Shown: in pieces, positions 12,551-19,262 of the stretch
Position numbering within the stretch: position 1 is the first letter of the stretch
Layout of the letters: each line of letters starts with the position of its first letter
Source: Acidimicrobiia bacterium
GTDB lineage: Bacteria; Actinomycetota; Acidimicrobiia; Spongiisociales; UBA5794
Length of the DNA: 42,244 bases
Assembly: GCA_030066715.1 (NCBI GenBank)
Contig: JASJBC010000006.1
Coordinates: forward strand, 1-42,244
Direction: 5' to 3'
The notes under the pieces: model-generated
Told to the model about the DNA's origin: nothing
Databases searched by the model: none
What the model saw: the letters and a program-made list of their open reading frames with translations, nothing else
Position numbers and translations under genes: made by a program

Positions 12551-13558
12551 TTAGTAACGCGACGAGTAGGTGACCAGGGAGCGCATGTAGTTGGTGCGCT
12601 CGAAGGCCTCGGGATCTCCGGCCGATGCCTGGCTGAGGCTGCCCTTGCCCTGCTCGATCGAGGTGTACTCCCGCTCTGCGAACCAGGACTCCATCTCGAA
12701 CAGCACAGTCGCCAGATGGCTGGGACCGTACTTGAGGAGCGCCGATGTCATCTGGGTGACGTCTGCCCCGGCGAGGATGAGCTTGACCACGTCCTCGCCG
12801 GTGTGCACCCCGGAGCTGGCGGCAATCGAGGCGTTGACCCGTCCCCGCAGGATCGCAGTCCAGCGCAGCGGCAACCGGAGGTTGACCGGGCTGGACAGCA
12901 CGATATCCGGCTTCACCTTGAGCTCGTCCAGGTTGATGTCCGGCTGATAGAAGCGGTTGAACAGCACGAGACCGTCCGCACCTGCTTCGACGAGACGACG
13001 ACACATCGATGCCAGCGACGAGAAGTACGGCGATATCTTCACTGCCAGCGGAATGTCGATGGTGCTCTTGATGTCCTCGACCAGCTGGATGTACCCGGCC
13101 TCGATCTCGCTGCCCGTCATGGTGATGTCGGTCGCCACGCGGTAGACGTTCACCTCGAGTGCGTCGGCACCGGCGTCCTCGATGGTCTTGGCGTACTTGG
13201 TCCAGCCACCGGGTGACATACCGTTGAGGCTGGCAATGACCGGAATCGTCAGATTGTCCTTGGCCTTCTGCAGCAGCTCCAGGTAGTGGTCGGGGCCGGT
13301 GTTGTAGACCTCCATCTCGGGGACGTACCCGCCGAACGCTTCGGGGGAGATCGCCGACCCGTACTCGTAGAGGTCATGGACCGCCCACGAGTCGTGCTCG
13401 ATCTGCTCCTCGAACAACGAAGGGAGAACCACAGCAGAGGCGCCTGCCTCCTCGAGCTGGACGAGAGTGTCCAGCTTCGAGGTCAGCGGCGAGGCCGAGG
13501 CGACGAGGGGGTTAGCCAGGTCAAGCCCGAGATACTTGGTTGAGATATCGACGGTCAT
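12551..13558 (-). CDS. Dihydroorotate dehydrogenase-like flavoprotein
   Basis: 335 residues forming a complete TIM barrel of the DHOD family, with LGLDLANPLVASASPLT at the start, IPVIASLNGMSPGGW, ADALEVNVY, IPLAVKISPYF, GLVLFNRF and the FMN-phosphate region ASSGVHTGEDVVKLILAGAD. The usual active-site NxSCPN loop of DHOD is replaced by LEVNVY, so it belongs to the 'DHOD-like' group that often sits next to pyruvate:ferredoxin oxidoreductase and is unlikely to make pyrimidines. The start ATG overlaps the nifJ stop (ATGA), so the two are translated together. Its substrate is unknown; a flavin reductase fed by PFOR electrons is a reasonable guess. A terminator follows. Confidence 0.87.
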   Translation of the reverse strand: MTVDISTKYLGLDLANPLVASASPLTSKLDTLVQLEEAGASAVVLPSLFEEQIEHDSWAVHDLYEYGSAISPEAFGGYVPEMEVYNTGPDHYLELLQKAKDNLTIPVIASLNGMSPGGWTKYAKTIEDAGADALEVNVYRVATDITMTGSEIEAGYIQLVEDIKSTIDIPLAVKISPYFSSLASMCRRLVEAGADGLVLFNRFYQPDINLDELKVKPDIVLSSPVNLRLPLRWTAILRGRVNASIAASSGVHTGEDVVKLILAGADVTQMTSALLKYGPSHLATVLFEMESWFAEREYTSIEQGKGSLSQASAGDPEAFERTNYMRSLVTYSSRY

Positions 13559-16500
13559 TCGTCTTCCTCCTCGTCGACGAGCTCTGCGGTCCGTTCAACG
13601 TGGATCATCTGCTCGTACAGGTGCCACCGGTTGTCGATGTCATCCTGCGCCTGATCCATCAGCTCCTCGTAGTGGTCGGGATTGGCCCGGGCCAGCATCG
13701 CAAACCTGCCCTCGGACTTGGCAAAGTCACGGAAGGAGATCTTCGGCGCCCGGCTGTCCAGCTTCATTGCGGGTCGGCCTTCGGCCTCCTCCGCCGGGTT
13801 GAACCGGTACAACGGCCAGTAGCCGGACTCCGCAGCTTCCTTCTGGCGGGCCATCATCGTCGCCATGTCGATACCGTGAGCGATGCAGGGGCTGAAGGCG
13901 ATGATTATCGACGGCCCGTCGTGAGCTTCCGCCTCGGCAAAGGCCTTGGCCACCTGAGTCATGTTGGCGCCCATGGAGACCTGTGCCACGTACACGTGAC
14001 CGTAGGACATGGCGATCATGCCCAGGTCCTTCTTCCCGGTCGGCTTGCCACCGGACGCAAACTTGGCGACCGCAGCACGCGGCGTCGACTTCGAAGCTTG
14101 GCCACCGGTGTTCGAGTAGACCTCGGTGTCCATCACCAGGATGTTGACGTTGCGATCGGAGGCCAGCACGTGGTCGAGGCCGCCGAAGCCGATGTCGTAC
14201 GCCCAACCGTCGCCACCGAGGATCCAGATGCTCATCTTGACCAGATAGTCGGTGATGGTGTCGAGACGCTTGGCCTCCGGCGAGTCCATCGTTGCCAGGA
14301 CCCGCTTCAGTTCGGCAACCCGATCCCGCTGCTTGGCCAGACCCTCTTCGTTCGACTGGTCGGCGTCGAGGATCTCTCCGGCGAGGCCGCCGATCTGCGG
14401 GGCCAACTCGGTGAGCAGGCCACGCGCCATCTCGGTCTGTTGATCGACCGCCAGCCGCATGCCGAACCCGAACTCGGCATTGTCCTCGAACAGCGAGTTC
14501 GACCACGAAGGTCCGCGCCCGTTCTCGTCAACGGTGTACGGAGTCGTCGGCAGGTTGCCGCCGTAGATCGAGGAACAGCCGGTGGCGTTGGCGATGATCA
14601 TGCGATCGCCGAACATCTGGCTCATCAGCTTGACGTACGGGGTCTCGCCGCAGCCTGCGCACGAGCCGCTGTACTCGAAGAGCGGCTTGAGCACCTGGGA
14701 GCCCTTGACGGTCTCGGTCTTGACCTTGGTGCGGTCGTAGTCCGGGATGTCGAGGAAGAAGTCGAAGTTGACCTTCTCTTCCTCGAGAACGTCCATCTTC
14801 GGGACCATGTTGATGGCCTTGTGCTTGACCTCTTCCTTGCTCTTGGCCGGGCATACGTTGACACACACCGCACAGCCGGTGCAGTCCTCGGGCGCAACCT
14901 GGATGGTTGTGTTCATGCCGGCAAAGTCACGGCCCTTCCACGGCTTCGACTGGAAGCTGTCGGGAGCACCCTCGAGCTCGGCGGGGTCGTACACCTTGAG
15001 CCGGATGGCCGCGTGCGGGCAGACCAAGGCGCAACGGGCACAGTCGATGCAGATCTCGGGATCCCATACCGGGATCTCGAGAGCGATGCTGCGCTTCTCG
15101 TACTGCGTCGTCGCAGTCGGGAAGGTGCCGTCGACGGGCAGGGCGCTCACCGGAAGCAGATCGCCCTTGCGGGCGGCGATCATGCCGGTGACACGCTGCA
15201 CGAAGTCGGGAGCGTCGGCGGGAACGGGCGGGATGAACTCGATCGTCGACGAGACCTCGCCGGGCACGGTGACCTCGGCGAGGGCGGCGAGTGACGAGTC
15301 GACTGCTGCGTAGTTCTTGTCGAGGATGACCTGGCCCCGCTTGCCGTACGCCTTCTTGATGCCGTTCTTGATGGCGGCGATGGCCTCGTCCTGGGGGAGA
15401 ACGCCCGCCAGGGCGAAGAAGCAAGTCTGGAGGACGGTGTTGACCCGGCCCCCGAGCCCGGCTGCCTGTGCCACCGCGACGGCGTCAACGACGTAGAACT
15501 TCAGCTTCTTGTCGATGATCTGCCGCTGCGTATCGGCGGTCAGATGCTCCCACACCTCGTCCGGCCCGTACGGGCTGTTGAGGAGGAAGGTCGCCCCCTC
15601 AGCGGCAATGTCGAGCACGTCGACCTTCTCCATGAAGTTGAACTGGTGGCAGGCCACGAAGTTCGCTTGCCGGATCTCGTAGGTCGACTCGATCTTCTTC
15701 GGTCCGAAGCGCAAGTGGGAGACCGTCATGGCGCCCGACTTCTTCGAGTCGTACACGAAGTGCGCCTGGCTGAACATGTCGGTGTTCTCGCCGATGATCT
15801 TCACGGAGTTCTTGTTCGCCCCAACCGTGCCGTCGGCGCCGAGGCCGAAGAACACGGCTTGCACGACGTCGTCCGGCTCGATCCAAACCCGCTCCACGGG
15901 CAAGCTGAGGTGGGTGACATCGTCGGTGATGCCAACCGTGAAGTGGTTCTTGGGCTCGTCCTTGTCCAACTCGTCGAAGACCGTCATGGCCATGGCCGGG
16001 TCGAACTCCTTGGACGACAGGCCGTAGCGGCCACCGATCACCCGCGGGCCTGCGCCCCTCTCGGCGAAGGCGGTGACTACGTCCAGGTACAGCGGCTCGC
16101 CCGTTGCCCCGGGCTCCTTGGTCCGGTCCAGGACCGCAACCCCCTTCACCGTCTCCGGCAGCGCCGAGAGGAAGCTGTCGACGGCGAACGGACGGTAGAG
16201 GTGGACCGTGAGGAGACCGACCTTCTCGCCTGAGGCGTTGAGGTAGTCAACGGCCTCGGTGGCGGCGCCGACACCGGAGCCCATCATCACGACGACCTTC
16301 TCGGCATCTGCGGCGCCGTGGTAATCGAAGAGGTTGTAGCGGCGGCCGGTGAGCTCTGCCAGCTTGTCCATCTCGCCCTGGACGATTCCCGGCAGGGCGT
16401 CGTAGAAGACGTTGGCCGCTTCCCGTGCCTGGAAGAAGACGTCCGGGTTCTGGGCGGTACCACGCAGCTTCGGATCATTGGGGTTGAGGGCTCGGAGCCG

Positions 16501-17109
16501 ATGGTCGGCAATGAGGTTGTCGTCGATCATCGCCCGGATGGTCTCGTCGCTGATCGCCTCGATCTTCGAGATCTCGTGCGAGGTGCGGAACCCGTCGAAG
16601 AAGTGGAGGAACGGGATGCGGGCACGCAGCGTAGAGGAGTGGGCCACCATCGCCATGTCCTGAGCCTCCTGGACCGACGAGGAGGCGAGGAGCGCAAAGC
16701 CCGTCTGGCGAGCCGACATCACATCGGAGTGGTCGCCAAAGATGCTGAGTGCGTGCGTGGCGAGCGTGCGGGCCGCAACGTGGATGACCGTCGGGGTCAG
16801 CTCGCCGGCGATCTTGTACATGTTCGGGATCATCAGGAGGAGCCCCTGCGATGCCGTGAACGTCGTACAGAGCGCTCCTGCCTGGAGAGCACCGTGCACG
16901 GCGCCGGCTGCGCCGCCCTCGCTCTGCATCTCGGTGACGTCTGGGATCACGCCCCAGATGTTGGGCTGGCCCACTTGGGACCACGAGTCCGCAAGCTCAC
17001 CCATCGGCGATGCCGGTGTGATCGGGTAGATGGCAATTACTTCAGATACGGCATGGGCCACTCTCGTGGCGGCCTCGTTGCCGTCGACCATGGTGTATTG
17101 GGCAGTCAA
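13555..17109 (-). CDS. nifJ: Pyruvate:ferredoxin (flavodoxin) oxidoreductase
   Basis: 1184 residues, the usual length of the single-chain homodimeric enzyme that converts pyruvate and CoA to acetyl-CoA and CO2 with reduction of ferredoxin. All domains are present: N-terminal pyrimidine-binding part with AIYPITPASPMGE, CoA-binding region, a double 4Fe-4S ferredoxin domain (Cys687-690-693-697 in CIDCARCALVCP and Cys743-746-749-753 in CTGCAVCVNVCP), SCAGCGETPYVKL, and the thiamine-diphosphate domain with GDG at 966-968 and MDTEVYSNTGGQASKSTPR. The start is TTG at 17109, five bases after GAGGAG; an ATG six codons inside (17091) lacks such a site. Forms an operon with the DHOD-like gene and diverges from a radical SAM gene. 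Implies low-oxygen or ferredoxin-based carbon flow. Confidence 0.97.
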   Translation of the reverse strand: MTAQYTMVDGNEAATRVAHAVSEVIAIYPITPASPMGELADSWSQVGQPNIWGVIPDVTEMQSEGGAAGAVHGALQAGALCTTFTASQGLLLMIPNMYKIAGELTPTVIHVAARTLATHALSIFGDHSDVMSARQTGFALLASSSVQEAQDMAMVAHSSTLRARIPFLHFFDGFRTSHEISKIEAISDETIRAMIDDNLIADHRLRALNPNDPKLRGTAQNPDVFFQAREAANVFYDALPGIVQGEMDKLAELTGRRYNLFDYHGAADAEKVVVMMGSGVGAATEAVDYLNASGEKVGLLTVHLYRPFAVDSFLSALPETVKGVAVLDRTKEPGATGEPLYLDVVTAFAERGAGPRVIGGRYGLSSKEFDPAMAMTVFDELDKDEPKNHFTVGITDDVTHLSLPVERVWIEPDDVVQAVFFGLGADGTVGANKNSVKIIGENTDMFSQAHFVYDSKKSGAMTVSHLRFGPKKIESTYEIRQANFVACHQFNFMEKVDVLDIAAEGATFLLNSPYGPDEVWEHLTADTQRQIIDKKLKFYVVDAVAVAQAAGLGGRVNTVLQTCFFALAGVLPQDEAIAAIKNGIKKAYGKRGQVILDKNYAAVDSSLAALAEVTVPGEVSSTIEFIPPVPADAPDFVQRVTGMIAARKGDLLPVSALPVDGTFPTATTQYEKRSIALEIPVWDPEICIDCARCALVCPHAAIRLKVYDPAELEGAPDSFQSKPWKGRDFAGMNTTIQVAPEDCTGCAVCVNVCPAKSKEEVKHKAINMVPKMDVLEEEKVNFDFFLDIPDYDRTKVKTETVKGSQVLKPLFEYSGSCAGCGETPYVKLMSQMFGDRMIIANATGCSSIYGGNLPTTPYTVDENGRGPSWSNSLFEDNAEFGFGMRLAVDQQTEMARGLLTELAPQIGGLAGEILDADQSNEEGLAKQRDRVAELKRVLATMDSPEAKRLDTITDYLVKMSIWILGGDGWAYDIGFGGLDHVLASDRNVNILVMDTEVYSNTGGQASKSTPRAAVAKFASGGKPTGKKDLGMIAMSYGHVYVAQVSMGANMTQVAKAFAEAEAHDGPSIIIAFSPCIAHGIDMATMMARQKEAAESGYWPLYRFNPAEEAEGRPAMKLDSRAPKISFRDFAKSEGRFAMLARANPDHYEELMDQAQDDIDNRWHLYEQMIHVERTAELVDEEEDE

Positions 17110-17251
17110 TTCAGCTCCTCAGCTTGAGGTGGCTTCAATGATTGCGACTGAGGGGTTCGAGTCGGTAGGCCCATAAGTCCTCAGGGAGTAGGCCAACTGT
17201 CGAAAAGCGCGCACAACTGCGGGAACCGGCTCCGGCAGCCGTCCGGTCGTC

Positions 17252-17279
17252 TGCGATAATTGGGGGTGTCGACGAAGGG
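17252..17279 (+). promoter_or_regulatory. Extended -10 and ribosome site before radical SAM gene
   Basis: TGCGATAAT (17252-17260) is an extended -10 (TG-N-GATAAT). GAAGGG (17274-17279) follows within the expected short leader, five bases before an in-frame ATC codon at 17285. No -35 is evident, as expected for an extended -10 promoter. This supports a start earlier than the first GTG at 17315. Confidence 0.5.
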
Positions 17280-17284
17280 TTGAT

Positions 17285-18133
17285 ATCGCAGCCGTCGCCA
17301 CCTTCGACTTCCATGTGACCGCGGAATGCAGTCAGGAGTGCGCCTACTGCTGGGGACCGCAGGGAATCTCTGCCGTCGACACCTACACTGCCCTCGCCAT
17401 CATCAGCAAGATCGCCGATGAGGGCAGCCGGCGGATCGTCTTCACGGGTGGTGACCCGCTCCAGCGTGCCGACCTGGGCGTCCTGATCAACCATGCTGCA
17501 CAGATAGGGCTCGAAGTCGCCGTGTCCACTACCGGTGATCTGCTGACCGAGGCCTTTCTCGAGGAGCACGGATCGAGGATCGACCTGATCTCCCTACCCC
17601 TGGACGGATCTTGCGAGGAGGTGTCCTCCCGTACCAAGAAGCCAGGTCATTTTGCAGCAGTCATGGCGGCACTCGACCTTCTCGAGTCTTTCGCACCGAT
17701 CGCGGTGAAGGTGGCAACACCGGTGACGAAGCACAACATCGCGGACGTGCCGAACATCGTTGCCTTACTCGACCGGAGGGCGGCCGCCCTGCAAGGTCGA
17801 CTCTTCTACAACGTCTTCCAGGCGTTTCCCCGCTCGATGGCGAGCGATGTCGAGTGGGAGGAGATGGTCGTTGCCGATGACGAGTTCCGGGAGTTGCGGG
17901 AGCAGGTCGAGACGACCGACCACCCCTACCGCATCAACTGGCTGAGCCACGAAACCCTCGACAAGCTGTACGTGATGGTCTTCCCCGATGGGACGCTAAC
18001 GGTGCCGGTGGGGTCCGAGTTTCGCAATTACGGCCCCTTTCTCGAGGTGACCGACATGGACTCCCTGCTGGATGTCGCCGAGTTCGACCGGGCCAAGCAC
18101 CAGCGTCACTCCCAGGGGTGGTCGCGCTCGTAA
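17285..18133 (+). CDS. Radical SAM protein, probable non-standard (ATC) start
   Basis: About 282 residues from ATC 17285, or 272 from GTG 17315. The radical SAM cluster motif is CSQECAYC (Cys-x3-Cys-x2-Cys) followed by WGPQG, with the SAM-binding strand RIVFTGGDPL and ISLPLDG. The first beta strand of the family, ATFDFHVTAEC, is coded upstream of the GTG, in frame and free of stops back to 17192, but no ATG, GTG or TTG lies in that stretch. ATC at 17285 has GAAGGG five bases before it and a -10 further up, so I favour it; a sequence error is the alternative. No second Fe-S cluster motif (SPASM) is present. Divergent from nifJ. Substrate unknown. Confidence 0.75.
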   Translation: MAAVATFDFHVTAECSQECAYCWGPQGISAVDTYTALAIISKIADEGSRRIVFTGGDPLQRADLGVLINHAAQIGLEVAVSTTGDLLTEAFLEEHGSRIDLISLPLDGSCEEVSSRTKKPGHFAAVMAALDLLESFAPIAVKVATPVTKHNIADVPNIVALLDRRAAALQGRLFYNVFQAFPRSMASDVEWEEMVVADDEFRELREQVETTDHPYRINWLSHETLDKLYVMVFPDGTLTVPVGSEFRNYGPFLEVTDMDSLLDVAEFDRAKHQRHSQGWSRS

Positions 18134-18145
18134 GCCCTGGCTCCC

Positions 18146-18181
18146 TTCTCCGGCATCTTCTCCGGCATCTTCTCCGGCATC
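18146..18181 (+). repeat. 12-base tandem repeat, three copies
   Basis: TTCTCCGGCATC occurs three times in a row (18146-18157, 18158-18169, 18170-18181) and is bounded by CCCTGG (18135-18140) and CCAGGG (18185-18190), which are reverse complements. It lies between the radical SAM stop and the acidic repeat protein start. No coding role is apparent. Confidence 0.85.
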
Positions 18182-18251
18182 TTCCCAGGGCATTCACACG
18201 ATCTTCACCCCGGTCCTGTCTCCTACCGGCAAGCTAGGAAAGGAGCATGAC

Positions 18252-19262
18252 ATGCTTTCGAGACGAAGGATCGTGGCAATCGCCGTTGCGGCAGCACTGA
18301 TGGTCGCCGCTTTGGTCGGTGTTGCCTCGGCCCAGACCGGAGACACATTGCCGGCGGAAACGGGCAAGGCGTTCGTGGAGATGGCCGACAACGCCAAGGC
18401 AGTCGCACTCTTCGACGAGGGTGACTTCGATGACGGTTTCTTTGGTGAGGATTGGGTGCCGTCGGCTGAGGAGATCGCAGAGATCAATGCGGAGACGGAT
18501 GCGTTGGTCGAGTATCTGCGGGATCTCGGGTTCGAGGTGACGATCGCTACCGATGAGCTTGGCTTCACCTATGTCGACTTCGAGAAGTACGACGAGGCCG
18601 ATGAGGCACTGTTTGCCGCCATGGACGACTTCTACCGGCAACAGTTCGCCGACGAGCTGGTGGGCTGGTCGGATGAGGAGAAGGCAGAGTGGAACGCCGC
18701 GATCGACGCGTTTGTCGCCGAACTCGCCGCCGAGGGGATCACGGTGGAGACCGAGGAGATCGCTCCTGGTGTCTATGACATCGTGTGGACCGAGGACATC
18801 GAGAAAGCCCTCTGGGAGCTCGAAGACGGCATCTTCTTCGGCGGGGAGTATGAGGATTGGGTGCCGTCGGTTGAGGAGATCGCAGAGATCAATGCGGAGA
18901 CGGATGCGTTGGTCGAGTATCTGCGGGATCTCGGGTTCGAGGTGACGGTCGCCACTGATGAGCTTGGCTTCTCCTTTATCGATTTCGACGAAGCCGATGA
19001 GGCGTTGTTGGAGGCGATGGACGACTTCTTCCGGCAGCAGTTTGCCGATGAGTTGGTGGGTTGGTCGGATGAGGAGAAGGCGGAGTGGAACGCCGAGATC
19101 GATGCGTTTGTCGCTGAGCTCGCTGCCGAGGGGATCGTGGTCGAGACCGAGGAGATCGCGCCTGGTGTCTATGACATTGTGTGGACCGAGGACATCGACG
19201 AAGCACTCTGGGAACTCGAGTGCGACAAGGATTGGGATGACGAGGAACTCGAAGAGGAGTGA
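18252..19262 (+). CDS. Secreted acidic protein made of two near-identical repeats
   Basis: 336 residues. A signal peptide (basic MLSRRR, hydrophobic core, likely cut after VASA near residue 27) is followed by a linker and two repeats, about 66-200 and 201-323, then an acidic tail rich in Asp and Glu. Each repeat contains EDWVPS, EEIAEINAETDALVEYLRDL, FRQQFADELVGWSDEEKAEW and APGVYDIVWTEDI. Repeat 2 lacks three residues (EKY) of repeat 1. The protein is strongly acidic, free of Cys except one near the end, and I do not recognise a family. Repeat DNA is almost identical over the first 96 bases, showing a recent duplication or gene conversion. ATG 18252 has AGGAG six bases before it. A two-component system follows 18 bases later; the protein may be its signal input or output. 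Confidence 0.8.
   Translation: MLSRRRIVAIAVAAALMVAALVGVASAQTGDTLPAETGKAFVEMADNAKAVALFDEGDFDDGFFGEDWVPSAEEIAEINAETDALVEYLRDLGFEVTIATDELGFTYVDFEKYDEADEALFAAMDDFYRQQFADELVGWSDEEKAEWNAAIDAFVAELAAEGITVETEEIAPGVYDIVWTEDIEKALWELEDGIFFGGEYEDWVPSVEEIAEINAETDALVEYLRDLGFEVTVATDELGFSFIDFDEADEALLEAMDDFFRQQFADELVGWSDEEKAEWNAEIDAFVAELAAEGIVVETEEIAPGVYDIVWTEDIDEALWELECDKDWDDEELEEE
18447..19220 (+). repeat. Internal tandem duplication, 405-base period
   Basis: Unit 1 (18447-18851) and unit 2 (from 18852 to about 19220) lie head to tail in frame. Their first 96 bases differ at one position (GCT versus GTT, Ala to Val). Identity falls afterwards but remains high, with unit 2 short by nine bases. The period is 135 codons in unit 1. 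Confidence 0.9.

Follow-up and report, generated by a model that had tools for sequence, protein, structure and literature searches.

A radical SAM gene in an uncultured member of the Acidimicrobiia appears to begin at ATC, a rare start codon. The gene lies on the forward strand of a stretch of 42,244 nucleotides (hereafter the window) from a draft metagenome-assembled genome (MAG) of 3.14 Mb, in 239 contigs and 76% complete. Alignment with relatives and a predicted structure make it near-certain that codon 17285 is the true start position, and we consider it probable that the AUC itself is real and used for initiation. The open reading frame extends from 17192 to 18133 (+) and is preceded by a TAG stop codon (17189-17191). 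As the initial annotation had stated, this frame contains no ATG, GTG or TTG before GTG 17315, and it is likewise devoid of CTG up to that point; the only near-cognate start codon in its vicinity is ATC 17285, and the GAAGGG five bases upstream and the -10-like TGCGATAAT that had been reported with it are both present in the sequence. The elements relevant to the start are as follows.

17285..18133, forward strand: viperin-fold radical SAM protein of 282 aa, from ATC 17285 to TAA (PF04055, E 5e-15; alignment; model pTM 0.91; viperin fold, Z 30.6).
17285..17287, forward strand: ATC codon at the homologous start position, aligned with ATG, GTG or TTG in twelve relatives.
17274..17279, forward strand: GAAGGG, presumed Shine-Dalgarno sequence (-5.1 kcal/mol), five bases before ATC 17285.
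17252..17260, forward strand: TGCGATAAT, presumed extended -10 box, ending 24 bases before ATC 17285; the box is common to 6/11 loci.
17315..17317, forward strand: GTG, the first ordinary start and by homology an internal Val codon, located downstream of strand 1 and lacking a Shine-Dalgarno sequence; the GTG is internal in relatives too.

Homologues with about 62-76% identity are found in the genus, the family and the order, and the twelve class-level loci with a readable N-terminus (L002-L009, L033, L036, L225 and L226) were used for the comparison of starts. In all twelve, the codon aligned to ATC 17285 is an ordinary start: ATG in nine (L003, L004, L005, L006, L009, L033, L036, L225, L226), GTG in two (L007, L008) and TTG in one (L002). 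Three residues separate this codon from a conserved [VI]-x-T-[FI]-D-F-H motif in every case, and protein conservation stops upstream of it. More distant members in Gemmatimonadota and Chloroflexota mostly have an ATG one codon ahead of the aligned place, and the frames of two of them (L039, L040) are open further upstream. A longer N-terminus encoded within 17192-17284 was rejected, as no conservation is seen there and the promoter-like box occupies the region.

The predicted structure leads to the same position. In the AlphaFold model built from the ATC (pLDDT 90, pTM 0.91) residues 6-10 form strand 1 and GTG 17315 encodes Val11, which follows it; the earlier observation that the first strand of the barrel (ATFDFHVTAEC) is coded upstream of the GTG is thus borne out by both model and homologues, and no ordinary in-frame start could yield the whole radical SAM domain. 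Translation from GTG 17315, which might be coupled to that of a short overlapping frame (TTG 17280 to TGA 17316-17318, or GTG 17266 to TGA 17281-17283), would make use of the first ordinary start in the frame and of a TGA/GTG overlap that is indeed seen at 17315. It would also remove a strand that all relatives keep, it would start at a codon that is internal in those relatives and that has no Shine-Dalgarno pairing ahead of it (+0.4 kcal/mol), and neither short frame shows conservation in the upstream alignment; GTG 17315 was rejected as the start, and we regard such translation as extremely improbable. The twelve aligned start codons, the shared -10-like box, the position of strand 1 before the GTG and the missing Shine-Dalgarno sequence of the latter are together what makes a start at 17285 near-certain.

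The product conforms to the radical SAM superfamily, with a CxxxCxxC motif formed by Cys15, Cys19 and Cys22 and a Pfam Radical_SAM (PF04055) score of 56.4 bits against a cut-off of 29.5 (E 5e-15). The solved structures closest to the model are viperins, which match it over its whole length (Z 30.6, rmsd 2.2 over 270 residues; Z 23.6 for the next family), and the PADLOC pVip models match the sequence with an E value of 9.5e-27. The NCBIfam viperin model NF038283 gives 70 bits against a curated cut-off of 180. This score is not diagnostic of viperin because numerous other radical SAM proteins attain a level of about 70 bits: matches to the model at E 1e-15 are present in 171/396 genomes of the phylum, and not one of them exceeds the cut-off. 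For these reasons the protein should be called viperin-fold and not viperin, and the viperin reaction, in which a nucleoside triphosphate is turned into its ddh form, would be putative here. It shares with viperin and the prokaryotic viperins (SAND) the whole-length fold, the cluster motif and the pVip match, and differs from them in its 16-20% identity, in a W-G-P that follows the cluster motif and in having no recurrent neighbour. The gene is patchily distributed (14/395 genomes of the class) and also occurs in scattered Gemmatimonadota, Chloroflexota and one deltaproteobacterium; the nearest named records that carry it are Acidimicrobiia MAGs, and IMG/VR yielded no viral copies. The enzyme is a stand-alone radical SAM protein without a constant neighbour.

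Two genes on the opposite strand adjoin it in the window.

13555..17109, reverse strand: nifJ, pyruvate:ferredoxin oxidoreductase (PFOR), divergent neighbour with a TTG start (TIGR02176, 1802 bits).
12551..13558, reverse strand: dihydroorotate dehydrogenase-like gene following nifJ (NF005741, 446 bits).

The initial annotation had raised the question of a link to PFOR. This pair of genes stands beside the radical SAM gene only in three loci of the same genus (the window, L032 and L035), which amounts to synteny within one genus, and a functional link was rejected. The region that separates nifJ from the radical SAM gene contains a block, GTAGGCCCATAAGTCCTCAGGGAGTAGGCCAACTGTCGA (about 17163-17203), of which L003 and L005 have nearly identical versions and in which GTAGGCC occurs twice, 23 bases apart; it is perhaps a control site of nifJ, and a presumed resemblance to the DosR box was dropped. 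Downstream, the stop codon of the radical SAM gene is followed by short tandem copies of cttctccggcat (18143-18185) and by a predicted secreted acidic protein (18252-19262) with two long, very similar internal repeats and no Pfam match.

The signals ahead of the ATC are consistent with its use. GAAGGG pairs at -5.1 kcal/mol compared to a median of -5.6 over 134 shared starts of the genome; equally strong pairing occurs at 28% of random positions, and the Shine-Dalgarno evidence is therefore not compelling. The sequence [GC]ATA[CA]T is found 23-30 bases before the start in 6/11 compared loci, window included, against a mean of 0.08 and a maximum of 3 in 5000 shuffles, a test that serves only as a guide because the compared sequences are related.

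The start position proposed by the initial annotation is thus supported and GTG 17315 is dismissed; the identity of the codon is less secure. None of the twelve readable relatives shares the ATC, and a single-base error is possible because the species is represented by one MAG only. An error of consensus or assembly, or a base from a minority strain, could have replaced a genuine ATG, for which one wrong base is enough; the ordinary start at this place in every readable relative and the draft state of the genome (239 contigs, 76% complete) speak for it. Clear nonsense breaks are nevertheless absent from the roughly 104,000 conserved codons of the sampled genome, a result that limits the error rate only loosely (nearly all apparent frame splits lie in shadow frames; L125 may contain a frameshift), and AUC appears to be usable in the lineage, as judged from infC below. 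We consider such an error possible, though unlikely. A further alternative is that the substitution is real and abolishes useful translation, the gene being newly silenced in this species and bound to decay. AUC with an average Shine-Dalgarno sequence should initiate poorly and the gene is accessory, given its few carriers in the class. On the other side the frame is intact, the promoter-like box is retained, and only 3 changes are seen at 123 otherwise invariant columns compared to 0-10 in other members. This absence of an excess led us to reject a pseudogene, whereas a very recent loss would leave no trace in the frame, the columns or the box; we hold recent silencing to be very unlikely. 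A genuine AUC start thus remains our preferred reading.

Whether the lineage can initiate at AUC was addressed with a survey of starts in 229 genes, drawn from 616 kb of this genome and compared against relatives. Shared starts were ATG in 85, GTG in 31 and TTG in 17. The radical SAM gene was the sole surveyed gene with a strongly conserved N-terminus before every ATG, GTG or TTG and an AUH codon at the start of its relatives; no further AUH start was found among the 229 genes, and general use of AUC was not seen. In a frame elsewhere in this genome (L124, 8789-10939, +) a CTG is aligned to the ATG of a relative and the first ordinary start follows 15 codons on; its N-terminus is weakly conserved, and a CTG start is only possible.

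The classic gene with an AUH start is infC, which begins at AUU in E. coli. In the present genome its apparent start is an ATC as well.

G000:C211 (L172), near contig start, reverse strand: infC with apparent ATC start, AGGAGGTCTCCC-ATC-GCCAACGAACCA; the gene is cut further on by the contig end.

The same apparent ATC start is found in all six other members of the genus (7/7 in total); in two infC loci the frame is closed by a stop codon 6 (L178) and 9 (L184) codons ahead of the ATC, and the interval holds no ATG, GTG or TTG. Across the class, in the loci that were read (L173-L214), ATC, ATA or ATT stands at the apparent infC start, with an ordinary start also near in a few. In the Acidimicrobiia that were read these apparent AUH starts are mostly preceded by a good Shine-Dalgarno sequence. 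The infC Shine-Dalgarno sequence is strong (-11.5), that of the radical SAM gene average. Since infC apparently starts at ATC in all seven members of the genus, AUC initiation should be available here, a strong inference from sequence. A literature search found no paper on AUC starts of infC.

We propose that transcription from the -10 box would produce a leader of about 18 nt, and that the ribosome would bind GAAGGG and initiate with fMet on the AUC, as the lineage apparently must for infC, to give a predicted N-terminus of (M)AAVATFDFHVTAECSQECAY... With a third base that mispairs against the initiator anticodon and an only average Shine-Dalgarno sequence, the gene is expected to be expressed less than it would be from AUG and to show greater sensitivity to IF3. 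A single third-base substitution of an ATG, in this species alone, would be the most economical history. The initial annotation had suggested that a weak start might keep expression low or self-controlled; as a conserved role this is disfavoured, because the ATC is absent from relatives, all of which, where readable, have ordinary starts. It is conceivable, though quite unlikely, that through a real, working AUC start the viperin-like enzyme is subject to IF3-dependent discrimination, as infC is, with synthesis occurring chiefly while IF3 is in short supply; if true, IF3 would in Acidimicrobiia control more than the translation machinery itself.

Gene finders in routine use are for the most part limited to ATG, GTG and TTG, and would consequently annotate such genes without the first strand of the barrel. 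Genuine AUC starts in uncultured lineages can be sought in a simple manner, through AUH codons that align with the starts of homologues, with infC from the genome in question serving as a positive control. Should the start be in use, the gene offers a natural test of how well AUC sustains an accessory enzyme whose Shine-Dalgarno sequence is average.

The radical SAM gene resembles infC in that homology fixes the place of the start and the codon there departs from AUG in its third base; within this genome, the codon after the ATC is GCC in infC and GCA in the radical SAM gene. The two differ in that the AUH start of infC is conserved across the class and accompanied by a strong Shine-Dalgarno sequence, whereas the ATC described here is limited to one species and its Shine-Dalgarno sequence is average. 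For S. aureus, an AUA start is documented for infC, along with an AUU start for cvfC1 and an AUA start for ccpN; yield is reduced and the Shine-Dalgarno motifs are extended (PMC13009471). The radical SAM gene is comparable to cvfC1 and ccpN as an ordinary gene other than infC with an AUH start; the S. aureus genes have extended Shine-Dalgarno motifs, ribosome profiling and, as reported for cvfC1, a conserved non-canonical codon (PMC13009471), whereas the present gene has an average Shine-Dalgarno sequence and an ATC that is not conserved. AUU and AUA starts in bacteria being already documented, the present case is one of a known kind, and makes a good test of AUC initiation rather than a surprise.
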